Below are positions 8,191 to 29,971 of a DNA stretch of 64,000 nt, piece by piece; positions within the stretch are counted from its first letter, which is position 1, and each line of letters begins with the position of its first letter. Location: contig JAAANZ010000031.1 of assembly GCA_009909065.1 (NCBI GenBank), forward strand, positions 17,596 through 81,595. Reading direction: 5' to 3'. The notes under the pieces were generated by a model, which did no database searches, was not told the origin of the DNA, and saw only the letters and a program-made list of their open reading frames with translations. The stretch is from Alphaproteobacteria bacterium. GTDB lineage: Bacteria > Pseudomonadota > Alphaproteobacteria > Caulobacterales > Hyphomonadaceae. A program made the position numbers and the translations under genes.

Positions 8191-8218
8191 TGATCCAACT
8201 CCCGTGCCGGGGCGTAAC
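8191..8218 (+). promoter_or_regulatory. ECF (RpoE/ChrR, ECF11-like) promoter for the phrB operon
   Basis: TGATCC (8191-8196), a 16-bp spacer, then CGTAAC (8213-8218), placed 27 bp before the phrB ATG with an intervening CGGAG ribosome site. TGATCC is the -35 element known for the Rhodobacter singlet-oxygen sigma factor RpoE. The identical arrangement occurs upstream of the chrR-like/photolyase operon at 29944-29971. Confidence 0.62.
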
Positions 8219-8244: not shown

Positions 8245-9711
8245 ATGACCCGCCCAGTGTCCCAGTCGGATCCCGTCATAATGTGGTTCAGGAATGACCT
8301 TCGCCTGCACGACAACCCGGCCCTGCATGCGGCCGTTTCGAGCGGGCGGCCTTTGGTATGCCTCTATATCCTCGACGAGGAGAGCCCGGGTCTTCGCGTG
8401 CCGGGCGGCGCGGCGAAATGGTGGCTGGACAAGTCGCTGCGTGCACTCGGCGAAGATATTGCCGCGCGTGGCGGGCGGCTCACGCTGCGCCGCGGCCGGG
8501 CTGACGCGGTGATTGACCAGGTCGTGGAGGAGAGCGGAGCCGGCGCCATTGTCTGGAACAGGCGCTATGACGCCGTCGGGCGCACGATCGATGCCGGTAT
8601 AAAGGAAGGCCTGCGCGCGCGCGGTCTCAAAGCCGACAGTCATAACGGATCGCTCCTGATGGAACCCTGGCGCCTGGAAACCGGCTCGGGGGGCTATTAC
8701 AAGGTGTTCACGCCCTTCTGGCGCGCACTCTGGAAAGCCTATGAGGCGCCCGGCGATCTCGGTGTGCCCGCGGATCTCGGCGGTCCGCAGCCCGCCAGTG
8801 ATGCACTGGATGACTGGGGATTGCACCCGACACGACCGGACTGGTCGAAGGGCTTCGAGCGGCTCTGGACACCCGGCGAGACGCCTGCCCGCGAGCGTCT
8901 CGAGAGCTTCCTGGACGGCCCCGCCGAACACTATGACGATGCCCGCGAGCGCCCCGATACAGACGGCACATCACGCCTGTCGCCGCATTTGCGCTGGGGC
9001 GAGATCGGGCCGGCCAGCGTCTGGCGCACAGTCCGCGCGGCCATGGAGGAAGGGGCGATCGATCAAAGGCATGCCCTGTCATTCCTCTCGGAGATTGCCT
9101 GGCGGGAATTCTCCTATGTCCTTCTCTTCCACAATCCCGATCTTTGCGAGGAGAATTACAATTCCGATTTCCGGCACATGCCCTGGCGCGACAGTGAAAC
9201 CGACCTCAAGGCCTGGCAGAAGGGCCTGACCGGGTATCCAATGGTCGATGCCGGGATGCGCCAGCTCTGGGCTCGCGGCTGGATGCATAACCGCGTGCGC
9301 ATGATCACGGGCAGCTTCCTGACCAAGCACCTCCTGCTACCATGGCAGCAAGGAGAGGACTGGTTCTGGGACACGCTTGTCGATGCCGACCCGGCCTCCA
9401 ATGCGGCCGGCTGGCAATGGGTGGCCGGTTCCGGTGCCGATGCGGCGCCCTATTTCCGCGTCTTCAACCCTATCACGCAGGGCGCAAAATTCGACCCCGA
9501 TGGCGCTTATGTCCGTCACTGGTGCCCCGAAATCGCCAGCCTGCCGGACAAGCACCTGCATGCGCCCTGGAAGGCCCCGAAAGACGTGCTCAAGACCGCT
9601 GGCGTCGAACTCGGCCGGAATTACCCCGCTCCGCTGATCGAGCACATGGACGGGCGCCGGCGGGCGCTGGAAGCCTATGACATATTGAAGGAAAGGCGCG
9701 AGACGGCATGA
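8245..9711 (+). CDS. phrB: Deoxyribodipyrimidine photo-lyase (class I CPD photolyase)
   Basis: This is a light-driven FAD enzyme that splits cyclobutane pyrimidine dimers. The 488-residue protein has the antenna-domain start IMWFRNDLRLHDNPAL, the FAD-binding region TSRLSPHLRWGEIGP and the signature WREFSYVLLFH. The C-terminal signature WDTLVDADPASNAAGWQWVAGSG lies near 375-395. It is the first gene of a four-gene operon (stop/start overlaps ATGA) that also makes cyclopropane fatty acid synthase, typical of alphaproteobacterial light/singlet-oxygen regulons. The preceding TGATCC-N16-CGTAA promoter supports that. Confidence 0.95.
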   Translation: MTRPVSQSDPVIMWFRNDLRLHDNPALHAAVSSGRPLVCLYILDEESPGLRVPGGAAKWWLDKSLRALGEDIAARGGRLTLRRGRADAVIDQVVEESGAGAIVWNRRYDAVGRTIDAGIKEGLRARGLKADSHNGSLLMEPWRLETGSGGYYKVFTPFWRALWKAYEAPGDLGVPADLGGPQPASDALDDWGLHPTRPDWSKGFERLWTPGETPARERLESFLDGPAEHYDDARERPDTDGTSRLSPHLRWGEIGPASVWRTVRAAMEEGAIDQRHALSFLSEIAWREFSYVLLFHNPDLCEENYNSDFRHMPWRDSETDLKAWQKGLTGYPMVDAGMRQLWARGWMHNRVRMITGSFLTKHLLLPWQQGEDWFWDTLVDADPASNAAGWQWVAGSGADAAPYFRVFNPITQGAKFDPDGAYVRHWCPEIASLPDKHLHAPWKAPKDVLKTAGVELGRNYPAPLIEHMDGRRRALEAYDILKERRETA

Positions 9712-11024
9712 AACGGATCGCCATTATCGGATCAGGCATATCGGGCCTCGGCGCCGCCTATGCCCTTCGCAACACCGCCGATGTCACGCTTTACGAGGCT
9801 CGCGGCCGGCTGGGCGGACATTCCCATACGCTGCGGATCGACCATGGCGGCGAAGCGCTGGATGTCGATGTCGGTTTCATCGTCTATAACGGGCGCAATT
9901 ATCCCAATCTCACGGGCCTGTTCGACGCGCTGGATGTCGTTACGCAACCGAGCGATATGAGTTTCTCGGTCTCCGATCCGGACGGCTATGAATGGGCGTC
10001 GTCCTCACGCGGCATCTTCGCGCAGAAGCGCAACCTGTTCAGCCCGCGCTTTCACCGCTTCTGGCGAACAATCCTGAAATTCAATGATGTCGCCCGCGCC
10101 CAGCTCGCCGCCGGCGAAATCGGCGATGTGGCGCTGCGCGTATGGCTGGACGAGAATGGTTTCGACCAGGTCTTTCGCGACAATTACATCCTGCCCATGG
10201 CCGCCGCGATCTGGTCGACGCCCGAACGCGGCGTGCTCGACTTTCCTGCGCGCAGCTTTTTCGAGTTCTTCGAGAATCATCGCCTGATGCACAAGGAACG
10301 CCCGAAATGGCGCACCGTCACGGGCGGTTCGCAGACTTACGTAAAAAGGATCGGGCAGGAACTCGGCGATCGTGTTCGGCTGGCAAACCCGGTACGACGG
10401 GTCGCCCCGTTTGGGCAGAGGGTCAAGGTCACGGTCGAAAGCGGGCAAAGCGATGTATTCGACGAGGTCATCCTGGCCTGTCATTCCGACCAGGCGCTGG
10501 CGATCCTTGATACGGCTTACGACACGCAGCGCTTCAACCTCGCCTCGGTGCGCTACCGGCCCAACCAGGTTTACCTGCATCGCGATGCCCGCCTCATGCC
10601 GAAACGGCGTGCGGCCTGGGCCAGCTGGAATGTCCTGAAGGGGCACGGCGAGGATGTCTGCCTGAGTTACTGGATGAACCGGCTGCAGTCGCTGCCGGAG
10701 CGCTGCGCGACCTTCGTGACACTCAACCCGCTCACGCCCCCGGCCGACGATACCGTGTTCGCTGAGCTCAGCTTCGATCATCCCCAGTTTGACGGGCCCG
10801 CCGAGGCCGCCGTGCGCGAGCTCAAGCGCCTGCAGGGGAGCGGTGGCATCTGGTTTGCCGGAGCCTGGATGGGGCGCGGCTTTCATGAAGACGGCCTGAA
10901 ATCGGGCCTCTCGCCGGCCCTGTCACTTGGGGGTCAGGTGCCCTGGAATGCCGAAGGCGTTGAAATCGTGTCCCGCCAACAGGACACTGCGCCAGTACAA
11001 CTGGTTGGGACGGCAACGAATTGA
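9708..11024 (+). CDS. FAD-dependent oxidoreductase (COG2907, amine-oxidase fold)
   Basis: This 438-residue flavoprotein has the N-terminal dinucleotide-binding motif IIGSGISGLGAAYAL and a conserved ARGRLGGHSHTL segment that binds the FAD ribityl chain. The C-terminal closing motif is GIWFAGAWMGRGFHEDGLKSG. It belongs to the COG2907 proteins that occur with DUF1365 and cyclopropane-fatty-acid synthase genes. A role in modifying unsaturated or cyclopropane acyl chains is likely but the reaction is not proven here. It overlaps phrB and the DUF1365 gene by 4 bp each, so translation is coupled. Confidence 0.88.
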   Translation: MKRIAIIGSGISGLGAAYALRNTADVTLYEARGRLGGHSHTLRIDHGGEALDVDVGFIVYNGRNYPNLTGLFDALDVVTQPSDMSFSVSDPDGYEWASSSRGIFAQKRNLFSPRFHRFWRTILKFNDVARAQLAAGEIGDVALRVWLDENGFDQVFRDNYILPMAAAIWSTPERGVLDFPARSFFEFFENHRLMHKERPKWRTVTGGSQTYVKRIGQELGDRVRLANPVRRVAPFGQRVKVTVESGQSDVFDEVILACHSDQALAILDTAYDTQRFNLASVRYRPNQVYLHRDARLMPKRRAAWASWNVLKGHGEDVCLSYWMNRLQSLPERCATFVTLNPLTPPADDTVFAELSFDHPQFDGPAEAAVRELKRLQGSGGIWFAGAWMGRGFHEDGLKSGLSPALSLGGQVPWNAEGVEIVSRQQDTAPVQLVGTATN

Positions 11025-11818
11025 ACCTGCAGCCGGCCCTCCGACTCCTCAAGGGACGCACCGACCATGTGCGTTTTGCCCCCTTCCATCACAGGTTTGG
11101 CTATCGATTGTTCCTGATCGACCTGGATATCGACCGGCTCGGGGAAGCCGCCCGGACCTCGCGCCTGTTCAGCGTGGATCGCGCCAATCTGTTCTCGTTT
11201 CGCAGGCGCGACCATGGCGCGCGCACCGATGCCGACCTGCGGCCATGGGCCGAAGCCCGCCTTCGCGAAAACGGCATAGACCCGGCCGGCGCCGCGATTC
11301 GCCTTGTCACCTTTCCGCGCCACCTGGGCTACAAATTCGCCCCGCTCTCCCTCTGGTTCGCGCACGGACCGGACGGGGGGCTTCGCGCCATCATCTACGA
11401 GGTCAACAACACGTTCGGCGAGAGCCACAGCTATGTCGCCGCGGCCGATGGCAGCCCGGCCTTTCACCGGGGCGACAAGACATTCCATGTCTCTCCCTTC
11501 TTCGATGTCAGCGGGCAGTACCGCTTCTCGCTGCGCCGACCGGAGGGCGGCCTCGGCCTTGTGATCGACAGTTTCGAGGGCACCGAGCGCCTGCATATGG
11601 CGACCATCAAGGCCCGTTACGCGCCGGCGGGCGACGGCCAGTTCCTGTTGGCCAGCCTCACCCGCCCGCTGTCTTCGCTTGCGGTCACACTTGGGATACA
11701 CTGGCAAGCGCTGAAATTGTGGGTCAAGGGCGCAAAATACCGACCCAAACCGGCCCCGCCCAGCACGGCAAGCACGCCTGCCCAGGCGGGGGGCGCTACT
11801 GCGGAGGACAGTCCATGA
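11021..11818 (+). CDS. DUF1365 family protein
   Basis: This 265-residue protein is DUF1365 (COG3496), found almost always between the COG2907 flavoprotein and cfa. Visible family motifs are HHRFGYRLFLIDLDID near the N-terminus, VTFPRHLGYKFAPLSLWF, YEVNNTFGESHSY in the middle and KTFHVSPFFDVSGQYRF after it. No catalytic mechanism is established. Context implies work on membrane acyl chains with the neighbouring flavoprotein and Cfa. It overlaps both neighbours by 4 bp. Confidence 0.88.
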   Translation: MNLQPALRLLKGRTDHVRFAPFHHRFGYRLFLIDLDIDRLGEAARTSRLFSVDRANLFSFRRRDHGARTDADLRPWAEARLRENGIDPAGAAIRLVTFPRHLGYKFAPLSLWFAHGPDGGLRAIIYEVNNTFGESHSYVAAADGSPAFHRGDKTFHVSPFFDVSGQYRFSLRRPEGGLGLVIDSFEGTERLHMATIKARYAPAGDGQFLLASLTRPLSSLAVTLGIHWQALKLWVKGAKYRPKPAPPSTASTPAQAGGATAEDSP

Positions 11819-27104: not shown

Positions 27105-28646
27105 TCAGCCGCGCGGCACAGCGCCGATCCCTGCAAGGAAATCATCGGACAGGCGGCGCATCTCGGCCAGCTCGCCCTCATCCTTCTTTTCGAGATTCTT
27201 CATGACGAGACCCATGCGGCCATTCTCCTTCAGCCGCTCGCGATGGGTGTCGAGGAAAGTCCAGTAAAGATAGTTGAACGGACAGGCCCTTTCGCCGGTC
27301 CGGCGGGTCGGGCTGTAAACGCAGCTCGAGCAGAAATCCGACATCTTGTTGATATAATTGGCGCTGGCGGCATAGGGTTTCGAGGCCATGAGGCCGCCAT
27401 CGGCAAAGATGGCCATGCCATGCGTGTTGGGAAGCTCGACCCATTCATAGGCATCGGCATAGACGATCATGTACCATTCATTGACCTCGCCAGGATGGAT
27501 TCCCGCCAGCAGGGCGAAATTGCCCGTCACCATAAGGCGCTGGATATGATGGGAATAGGCATGGTCGCGGCTGTGAAGGACCGCTTCGCGCAGGCAGGCC
27601 ATGTCGGTCTCGCCGGTCCAGTAAAAGTCCGGCAGGGCCCGGTCGGCCCCGAAATGATTGGTCTCGCGGTAGCCGGGCATGCGCCACCAGTAGAGGCCGC
27701 GCACATATTCCCGCCAGCCGAGGATCTGGCGGATGAAGCCCTCGACGGCATTCAAAGGGGCATGGCCCCTCTTCCAGGCCGTCTCGGCGCGCCGGCAGAC
27801 ATCGAGAGGGTCCAGCAGGCCGAGATTGAGATAAGCTGACAGCAGCGAGTGCCAGAGAAACGCCTCCTGCCGGGCCATGGCGTCCTGAAAGTCGCCGAAA
27901 TTCGGCAGGATGTCATTGATGAAGTGGTCGCGCGCGGCCTCCGCCTCGCTGCGAGTGACCCCCCACCGGAACGCGCGCAAGGTCCCGAAGTGATCGGGAA
28001 ACCGTGTCTCGACCATGTCAATCACTTCGCGGGTGATCTTATCGGGGCGGAAATCGCGCCGGTGTGGCGTGTCCTTGCTGGCCGGAAGGGATCTGCGATT
28101 GTCCTGATCGAAATTCCAGGCGCCGCCGGCCGGTTTGTCACCTTCCATGAGCAGGCCGGTGCGCCGGCGCATGTCACGGTAGAAATACTCCATCCGCAGC
28201 GATTTGCGCCCCTCCGCCCAGTCGGCGAAATCACGGATTGATGCAATGAACCGGGTATCCTCACGCAGTTCGACCGGACAACCGAAATGGCCCTCCCATT
28301 CCTCCATGTCGGACAGGAGGCGCCATTCGCCCGGCCGGGTGACAATCACCCGCTCGATCCCGTCAATCTCGTCGAGGGTGCGCGCCGTCTGCGCTTTCAG
28401 GCTGCCTTCATTGCCGGGATCATCAAGGCGGACATAACGCACCTGCCAGCCCGCCTCGCGCAATTCCTCGGCGAAATGGCGCATGGCAGAGAAGACGAGC
28501 ACAAGCTTCTGCTTGTGATGGCGCACATAGGTCGCCTCGGACATGACCTCGGCCATCAGGACGGTGTCACGATCCGCGTCGGCGCCGTCGAGCGCTGCGA
28601 TATCCGGCGTCAGCTGGTCGCCGAGGATGAGGCGCAGGCTGGCCAC
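27105..28646 (-). CDS. FeS-type bacterial cryptochrome/(6-4) photolyase
   Basis: This 513-residue protein belongs to the PhrB/FeS-BCP branch, which repairs (6-4) photoproducts and binds FAD, a lumazine-type antenna and a [4Fe-4S] cluster. It starts with the distinctive MASLRLILGDQLTPDI. The four cluster cysteines fit TDMACLREAV plus FCSSCVYSPTRRTGERACPF. It starts at a GTG and is the last gene of the chrR-like/DUF6134/photolyase operon behind a TGATCC-N16-CGTAA promoter. That promoter is shared with the phrB operon, so both photolyases are probably induced together. Confidence 0.93.
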   Translation of the reverse strand: MASLRLILGDQLTPDIAALDGADADRDTVLMAEVMSEATYVRHHKQKLVLVFSAMRHFAEELREAGWQVRYVRLDDPGNEGSLKAQTARTLDEIDGIERVIVTRPGEWRLLSDMEEWEGHFGCPVELREDTRFIASIRDFADWAEGRKSLRMEYFYRDMRRRTGLLMEGDKPAGGAWNFDQDNRRSLPASKDTPHRRDFRPDKITREVIDMVETRFPDHFGTLRAFRWGVTRSEAEAARDHFINDILPNFGDFQDAMARQEAFLWHSLLSAYLNLGLLDPLDVCRRAETAWKRGHAPLNAVEGFIRQILGWREYVRGLYWWRMPGYRETNHFGADRALPDFYWTGETDMACLREAVLHSRDHAYSHHIQRLMVTGNFALLAGIHPGEVNEWYMIVYADAYEWVELPNTHGMAIFADGGLMASKPYAASANYINKMSDFCSSCVYSPTRRTGERACPFNYLYWTFLDTHRERLKENGRMGLVMKNLEKKDEGELAEMRRLSDDFLAGIGAVPRG

Positions 28647-29370
28647 GCCTCAGTAGGGCTCGCCGCAGGACATAGTCGATCTTCTGGCCGCGCGCTTCGA
28701 AAGCCAGCTTCACCCAGCGGTCCTGATCGTCATACCAGAGCGTGACATCGATGTCGGAATCCATGAGGAATTTACGCGCCTCAACCGGCTCGCCTCCGGC
28801 CATGATAGTCTCCCGGCCGAGCGGCTGGACATCGACCTCGATCACCTCGCCGCTCTCGGTTGACAGGATCCGGTCGGTCTCGGTCTGCCAGATATTCCAG
28901 TGGCTGGCCGGGATGATCGTGGCCGGCAATTCGCCCTCGAACGCGGTTCCGTTCACTTCCAGACGGGGGCCGTCCCGCCGGGCGGTGACCGATTTGCGCG
29001 CGCCGTCATCATTCACTTCGCCCTCGACCGCCTGGATATAACCGTCCTGCCAGGTCTCGCGCGCATCCAGGCGATAGCGGAAAAGCGTGATCGGCCCGAG
29101 CCCGGCCCTGAGATCCACATCGATGACGGCTTCAAGCTGGCCGGCCGCGTTTTCCTCGAAGCGGACGATATGCGTGCCGAAATCGCTGCCCTGGCGATAG
29201 ACATCGAAATGGATCGTGTCGCCCGGCTCCGGCTGCCAGGCGAAATCCCGCGGTTCCATCCCGGCCGATGGGCTTTCCACAGTGTCGCCATGCGCGGCAT
29301 GTGCTCCCAGGCTGGCCGCCAGGGCGGCCACAGCCATGCGAAACAAATGTCGTGGACGTGAAAGGATCAA
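28567..29370 (-). CDS. Secreted DUF6134-like protein
   Basis: This exported protein has signal peptide AVAALAASLGAHAAHGD and a beta-rich domain. The segment IHFDVYRQGSDFGTHIVRFEE, then LFRYRLDARETWQDGYI, then ASHWNIWQTETDRILST resembles DUF6134; its function is unknown. The ATG at 29370 overlaps the chrR-like stop by 4 bp. The frame as read runs 80 bp into the photolyase gene, giving an arginine-rich tail unlike the family. One extra C in the CCC run near 28655 would instead end the protein at 28650 (a few bases before the photolyase GTG), which I think is the true end. Confidence 0.6.
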   Translation of the reverse strand: MILSRPRHLFRMAVAALAASLGAHAAHGDTVESPSAGMEPRDFAWQPEPGDTIHFDVYRQGSDFGTHIVRFEENAAGQLEAVIDVDLRAGLGPITLFRYRLDARETWQDGYIQAVEGEVNDDGARKSVTARRDGPRLEVNGTAFEGELPATIIPASHWNIWQTETDRILSTESGEVIEVDVQPLGRETIMAGGEPVEARKFLMDSDIDVTLWYDDQDRWVKLAFEARGQKIDYVLRRALLRRGQPAPHPRRPADAGYRSARRRRRGS

Positions 29371-29912
29371 CTCAACCTCCAGAAGCGTTTGGGCGCGCGG
29401 GCAACAAAGCAGATGCAGGCTGTCGGCCCGCCCGCGCCGGGCCTGTGGGATTGCCCTGGCACCCCGATAACGAGATCGCCAACGGTAAAGTTTCCCTCCG
29501 CCACCTGCAGCTCGCCGCGCAGCACGACCGTGGCCTCGGTGACGGAATGGCCGTGAGCGGGAACGAACTGGCCCGGCTCAAGGCGCATGAAAGCTCCCCC
29601 GCGCACCCCCGCGCGGGCATGACGCACGCCCGAAAGCCCCCGCCGCCAGCGCAATTGGTCAAAGTCGCGTGCCAGTATGTCAGCTACCGGCAGATACGGC
29701 GTCTTTCTTGCCCTGCCACGGCGCGTTTCTTCGTCGCCCTTTACGGGCGCGGAATTTTCGAGCAGGGCCCCGCCGACCGCGTCCCAGACAGTCGCGACCT
29801 CCGCGCCCTGGCGGCTGAGATGGACATGCAGCTCGCCCGCCAGCATGAGCGCGGGCGGAAGGCTGCTGGTGGCATGGTCGAGCATGAAGGAATGATAGGC
29901 TGATTGGCTCAA
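29367..29912 (-). CDS. ChrR-like cupin (anti-sigma factor family) with degenerate N-terminal zinc motif
   Basis: This 181-residue protein is homologous along its length to ChrR, the zinc anti-sigma factor of RpoE in Rhodobacter. The N-terminal domain keeps the family's VWDAVGGALLENSAPV. Where ChrR has HLSLCDEC, it reads HLSRQGAE, so both zinc cysteines are gone. The C-terminal cupin keeps its metal ligands (PAHGHSVTE and SHRPG) after the LRWRRGLSGV start. No sigma factor gene is adjacent. The cupin may still sense an oxidant or act without zinc in the ASD domain. It heads the operon and has an ECF11-like promoter. Confidence 0.8.
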   Translation of the reverse strand: MSQSAYHSFMLDHATSSLPPALMLAGELHVHLSRQGAEVATVWDAVGGALLENSAPVKGDEETRRGRARKTPYLPVADILARDFDQLRWRRGLSGVRHARAGVRGGAFMRLEPGQFVPAHGHSVTEATVVLRGELQVAEGNFTVGDLVIGVPGQSHRPGAGGPTACICFVARAPKRFWRLS

Positions 29913-29943: not shown

Positions 29944-29971
29944 TTTACGGGCCTTCGGGCCATGCGGATCA
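29944..29971 (-). promoter_or_regulatory. ECF (RpoE/ChrR, ECF11-like) promoter for the chrR-like/photolyase operon
   Basis: On the minus strand: TGATCC (29971-29966), a 16-bp spacer, then CGTAAA (29949-29944), 31 bp before the ATG at 29912. This has the same elements and spacing as the site in front of phrB. Confidence 0.65.

Follow-up and report, generated by a model that had tools for sequence, protein, structure and literature searches.

A ChrR-like orphan gene of Hyphomonadaceae under a predicted RpoE/ECF11-type promoter

The closest described system is the RpoE-ChrR pair of R. sphaeroides. ChrR is a ZAS anti-sigma factor of RpoE with an N-terminal anti-sigma domain (ASD) and a C-terminal cupin domain; the PDB entries 2z2s and 2q1z are its structures. 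In R. sphaeroides, the ASD zinc is required for the inhibition of RpoE by ChrR, and it is an open question whether singlet oxygen is sensed by this zinc or by the cupin. Helix IV is the one ASD helix that is structurally conserved, and it touches sigma region 2.1 in ChrR and in E. coli RseA, which has a similar fold and still makes this contact with no zinc (PMC6852236).

The ChrR-like protein and its two domains

The window, i.e. the whole stretch of 64,000 nucleotides that was analysed, contains an intact ChrR-like ORF of 181 aa (29367-29912, minus strand). Its start codon is TTG, and the aligned orthologues fit well to the same start. In a phmmer search against the PDB, the top matches were 2z2s and 2q1z (E 1e-15 and 1e-14), and the homology to ChrR spans both the helices and the cupin. 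Pfam Cupin_7 was matched with E 1.5e-10; the TIGR02451 match (E 2.7e-15) scored 56.8 bits, below the curated cut-off of 124.5 bits. A ChrR family anti-sigma factor would be expected to be encoded with its sigma factor; a scan of 20 orthologous loci showed no adjacent sigma gene, and none is adjacent here, as the sequence-only reading had stated for rpoE. The gene is thus called an orphan. It is a lineage-conserved ChrR paralogue, shared by a whole bacterial group (Hyphomonadaceae and allies).

The cupin domain (codons 83-174; 29391-29666, minus strand) was delimited by the Cupin_7 match and by invariant columns. It contains the complete HHEH metal site (H120, H122, E126, H156) and a CxC pair near the C-terminus (C166, C168). 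The ligands are complete in all orphans, with E or D at the third position. Together with the ChrR structure matches, these residues bear out the earlier description of a ChrR-like protein with an intact cupin site. Domain order, three-helix core, HHEH cupin, and CxC pair are all shared with R. sphaeroides ChrR. However, H6, C35, C38, and helix IV of ChrR are absent, the C-terminus is shorter, and the gene is not encoded with rpoE but has its own RpoE-type promoter.

Alignment of 20 orthologues showed that H29, not H31, is the sole invariant N-terminal histidine. By ungapped count, H29 lies 15 residues ahead of the Asp of DAVGG, exactly the spacing of H31 in ChrR. Therefore, the zinc-site positions (codons 29-36; 29805-29828, minus strand) read H29-VHL-S33-RQ-G36, with H29 corresponding to ChrR H31, and with S33 and G36 at the positions of C35 and C38. 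The H6 position is S in this protein and mostly D, N or Q elsewhere, so that the H-H-C-C ligands read S/H/S/G. Since a single ligand of four is left, a ZAS-type zinc finger cannot form. The sequence-only reading had taken the HxxxCxxC motif to read HLSRQGAE; the cysteine loss was correctly recognized, but its register (H31/Q35/E38) was two residues off. In all other orphans sampled, the first cysteine position is occupied by Ser, Thr, Asn, Gln, Arg or Lys, and the second by Gly or Ala; the orphans retain H31 at most, or H31 and H6 in one case (L180). No relative with intact cysteines was found among the close orthologues. Because the loss is common to all orthologues, sequencing error and isolated mutation are ruled out as its source.

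The protein was modelled with AlphaFold from the alignment of its orthologues, at a mean pLDDT of 89.6. The model shows a three-helix anti-sigma-domain core at codons 3-52 (helices 3-14, 20-32, and 34-52; 29757-29906, minus strand), with pLDDT values mostly of 88-97. Foldseek ranked ChrR first (2q1z as top match), and a ChrR-like N-terminal domain is kept in the predicted structure. The observation thus withstands both refuting conditions named in the sequence-only reading, a missing ChrR-like N-terminal domain and relatives with intact cysteines. There is no helix IV in the model. Residues 53-75 (29688-29756, minus strand), at the helix IV position of ChrR, form a disordered linker of low pLDDT. 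The equivalent of ChrR residues 57-105 has 33 aa instead of 49, and the median lengths are 36 in the orphans and 56.5 in the sigma-linked ChrRs. Within the orphans, conservation is lowest in this region (0.09 vs 0.29 in the sigma-linked ChrRs); in contrast, helix I is more conserved in the orphans (0.64 vs 0.39, recomputed after leaving out loci picked by their helix I pattern). A helix-IV HMM gave cross-validated medians of 29 bits (sigma-linked) and 5.9 bits (orphan), but the tails of the two distributions overlapped and the training rows were related to each other; the absence of helix IV was hence argued from model, length, and conservation, and not from the HMM. For the sigma-linked ChrRs, helix IV was taken from sequence and crystal structure, the AlphaFold model being that of the orphan only. 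As the helix IV contact is conserved and RseA is zinc-free, the loss of helix IV is a better ground than the loss of zinc for doubting classical sequestration. The sequence-only reading, which pointed out that ChrR needs its zinc site to bind sigma, had overlooked this stronger point.

Promoter, operon, and regulon

An exact TGATCC-N16-CGTA motif lies upstream of the ChrR-like gene (29946-29971, minus strand), with its -35 box (TGATCC) beginning 59 nt upstream of the start codon. The same consensus was derived by ChIP for the ECF11 sigma factor of P. syringae (PMC5507510). RpoE2 promoters of Shewanella also match it, one of them before a photolyase-related gene (PMC4336711). In a first set, the motif was found upstream of 21/21 orthologues, 20 with N16 and one (L049) with N15. 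Among 40 aligned sites, a set overlapping the first, one had a single mismatch (L178); the box columns were conserved at 0.97-1.00 and the spacer columns at 0.35-0.70. The 2.49 Mb genome has four exact sites and no match to the reversed pattern. These four sites are upstream of the ChrR-like gene, the phrA operon, and a sigma-32 gene, and inside a crtI-like (carotenoid desaturase-like) ORF. The site before the sigma-32 gene is parallel to rpoHII of R. sphaeroides, which is driven by RpoE (PMC6852236). The phrA site is also in the window (8191-8216, plus strand); it precedes an operon for a DNA photolyase, an FAD amine oxidase, and DUF1365 (8245-11818, plus strand; ORFs and Pfam), the usual operon of the RpoE regulon. 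A cyclopropane-fatty-acyl synthase-like gene was noticed by eye downstream of it. In Henriciella relatives, no more than about 5 kb separates the photolyase-amine oxidase-DUF1365 operon from the orphan chrR.

The gene after the orphan encodes a DUF6134 protein (28567-29370, minus strand; PF19630, E 6.9e-48), with a beta-fold model, a domain end at about 28657, and an N-terminus that looks like a signal peptide by eye. Its start overlaps the stop of the ChrR-like gene by 4 nt (TTGA). It is followed by the gene of a photolyase-related protein (DPRP, FeS-BCP type; 27105-28646, minus strand; PF04244, E 1.2e-86). The Pfam matches and the overlap agree with the coupling noted from the sequence alone, which had been read as an odd gene context; the conserved promoter had been missed. 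The DUF6134 fold search returned only weak matches, the DUF1849 beta-barrel-like 6ntr (E 2e-5, TM 0.5) and LprF, and no mention of DUF6134 was found in the literature searched. At 28567-28660, the DUF6134 ORF also reads about 30 aa beyond the stop of its relatives and overlaps the photolyase start; the extension has the look of a single-base indel close to the 3' end, either real or an assembly error.

Given the conserved promoter, the ChrR-like, DUF6134, and photolyase genes very probably form a unit of the RpoE (ECF11) regulon, with RpoE assigned by elimination as the sigma factor reading the promoter in an assembly that is 80% complete. The known RpoE/ECF11 regulon operons (the phrA-cfa type and the Shewanella SO_4169 photolyase-related gene) share with this unit the TGATCC-N16-CGTA motif, photolyases, and photooxidative stress genes. 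What differs here is a ChrR paralogue that would belong to the regulon and has a promoter of its own, an arrangement of which no description was found in the literature searched. The RpoE regulon would thus gain DUF6134 and a ChrR paralogue.

RpoE-linked ChrRs and possible roles of the orphan

An rpoE-chrR pair, which the sequence-only reading had proposed to look for, was found on another contig of the same genome (L001), with the two genes overlapping by 4 nt. At the zinc site, this ChrR reads ETQAALRNDISEA, with no cysteines. Most rpoE-linked ChrRs of the relatives also lack them, and a few relatives retain HHCC. The "canonical ChrR" suggested earlier as a competitor therefore has no zinc cysteines in this genome either, and zinc loss is no special mark of a decoy. 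The loci without ASD cysteines include those of Hyphomonadaceae (L001:1492-2861, L064-L085), as well as SAR116-type and some Rhizobium loci (L177-L199). The zinc-free rpoE-linked ChrRs resemble the orphans in their two-domain plan and in the absence of the cysteine pair; however, their genes overlap rpoE, their helix IV sequence is kept (e.g. DGALERAFAAIDAE), and most of them have lost H31, which is invariant in the orphans. Where rpoE is paired with a zinc-free ChrR, the exact motif is mostly absent upstream of it; autoregulation through it was likewise not seen upstream of the genome's own rpoE (L001:2861-3630). Some zinc-type rpoE-chrR pairs (L058, L061) do carry it.

A phylogenetic tree of 80 proteins, read without a fixed root, separated the orphans as one clade from the sigma-linked ChrRs (support 98/97). 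The zinc-free sigma-linked ChrRs were scattered over the tree, and well supported branches force at least three changes. Since the sigma-linked ChrRs lost their cysteines several times, zinc loss alone tells little about sigma binding. All 22 orphan-bearing genomes also have a sigma-type ChrR match. The nine genomes probed have one RpoE-like (ECF11-like) sigma each, and a second, unlinked RpoE serving the ChrR-like protein was not found among them.

These analyses moderately favor, as the best explanation, a cupin protein that RpoE induces and that has ceased to sequester a sigma factor in the classical way. It is probably a product of the stress response rather than a stray off-switch, because a whole bacterial group keeps the gene under the promoter of this same response. 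By analogy with R. sphaeroides, oxidative stress would free RpoE from its cognate ChrR, whose gene accompanies rpoE at another place in the genome. RpoE would then transcribe the operon from the predicted promoter, yielding the ChrR-like protein, the exported-looking DUF6134 protein, and the photolyase. With neither zinc site nor helix IV, the three-helix core would not sequester RpoE in the ChrR fashion, and this loss of classical sequestration is considered fairly likely. The protein would most likely act through its cupin metal site, working on the same chemistry (oxidised lipid or hydroperoxide), and the very conserved helix I would serve for docking to a partner. Tentatively, the RpoE response of Hyphomonadaceae and their allies might make its own ChrR-like protein without zinc and helix IV, feeding back without sequestration, as a cupin sensor or adaptor that docks via helix I.

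The strong conservation of helix I in the orphans points to a continued use of the N-terminal domain, possibly for sigma binding. This conservation also fits the main rival explanation, a zinc-independent feedback anti-sigma factor, which would be made by RpoE and bind it weakly through the three-helix core (perhaps at region 4), ending the response. Zinc is dispensable in principle, as in the zinc-free E. coli RseA (PMC6852236), and the cysteines are missing from many of the sigma-linked ChrRs analysed. Moreover, one genome (G126) has a full ChrR, unlinked to rpoE, with the same promoter and DUF6134, which indicates that the promoter-chrR-DUF6134 layout can serve an anti-sigma factor. However, helix IV is missing in the orphan model, conservation across the orphans is lowest at its position (0.09 vs 0.29), and a separate rpoE-chrR pair is already present in every orphan genome. 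The feedback role is possible but somewhat doubtful.

The protein might also act on the rpoE-linked ChrR as its partner or decoy: it would pair with this ChrR or compete for its signal, and so help RpoE release in a positive feedback. The cupin fold and the regulon are in common with ChrR, and some RpoE targets of R. sphaeroides are needed for ChrR turnover (PMC6852236); the known turnover factors, however, are lipid-modifying enzymes and not ChrR homologues, and this role seems improbable. A decaying or misassembled gene without function is scarcely credible: the zinc site and helix IV are lost and the DUF6134 ORF has an extension of about 30 aa beyond the relatives' stop, but the gene is intact, collinear, and kept in dozens of genomes, among them those of named isolates of Hyphomonas and Henriciella, and its promoter is conserved across the orthologues.

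The two groups amount to natural experiments: the sigma-linked ChrRs are repeatedly without ASD zinc, and the orphan clade is also without helix IV, with the cupin kept. Comparing both would separate the roles of zinc, helix IV, and cupin.

Gene neighborhoods and history of the chrR-DUF6134 unit

The orphans are transcribed divergently from cysK or lie close to the genes that usually follow it. Of the 20 loci, a single one has no DUF6134 after the orphan (L047; L046 ends with its contig), and in some of these loci a photolyase comes next. The DUF6134 family occurs in 117 of 289 Alphaproteobacteria, often beside the same photolyase. In Rhodothalassium salexigens (L198:5347-7484), rpoE, a zinc-free chrR, and DUF6134 are in a row, followed by a short-chain-dehydrogenase-like ORF. 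In G126, rpoE is alone on one contig, and another contig carries the HHCC chrR with a helix IV sequence, which is the sole full-length ChrR match of this genome. Two genomes with no orphan (G007, G016) have DUF6134 directly under the TGATCC-N16-CGTA promoter. These arrangements suggest that a chrR-DUF6134 unit parted from rpoE, and that its ChrR later lost the zinc site and helix IV.

In the genome G196, one contig end (L255) carries rpoE and the start of a zinc-type chrR, and another (L247) carries a chrR end, DUF6134, and the photolyase. The two ends are possibly parts of one rpoE-chrR-DUF6134-photolyase locus.
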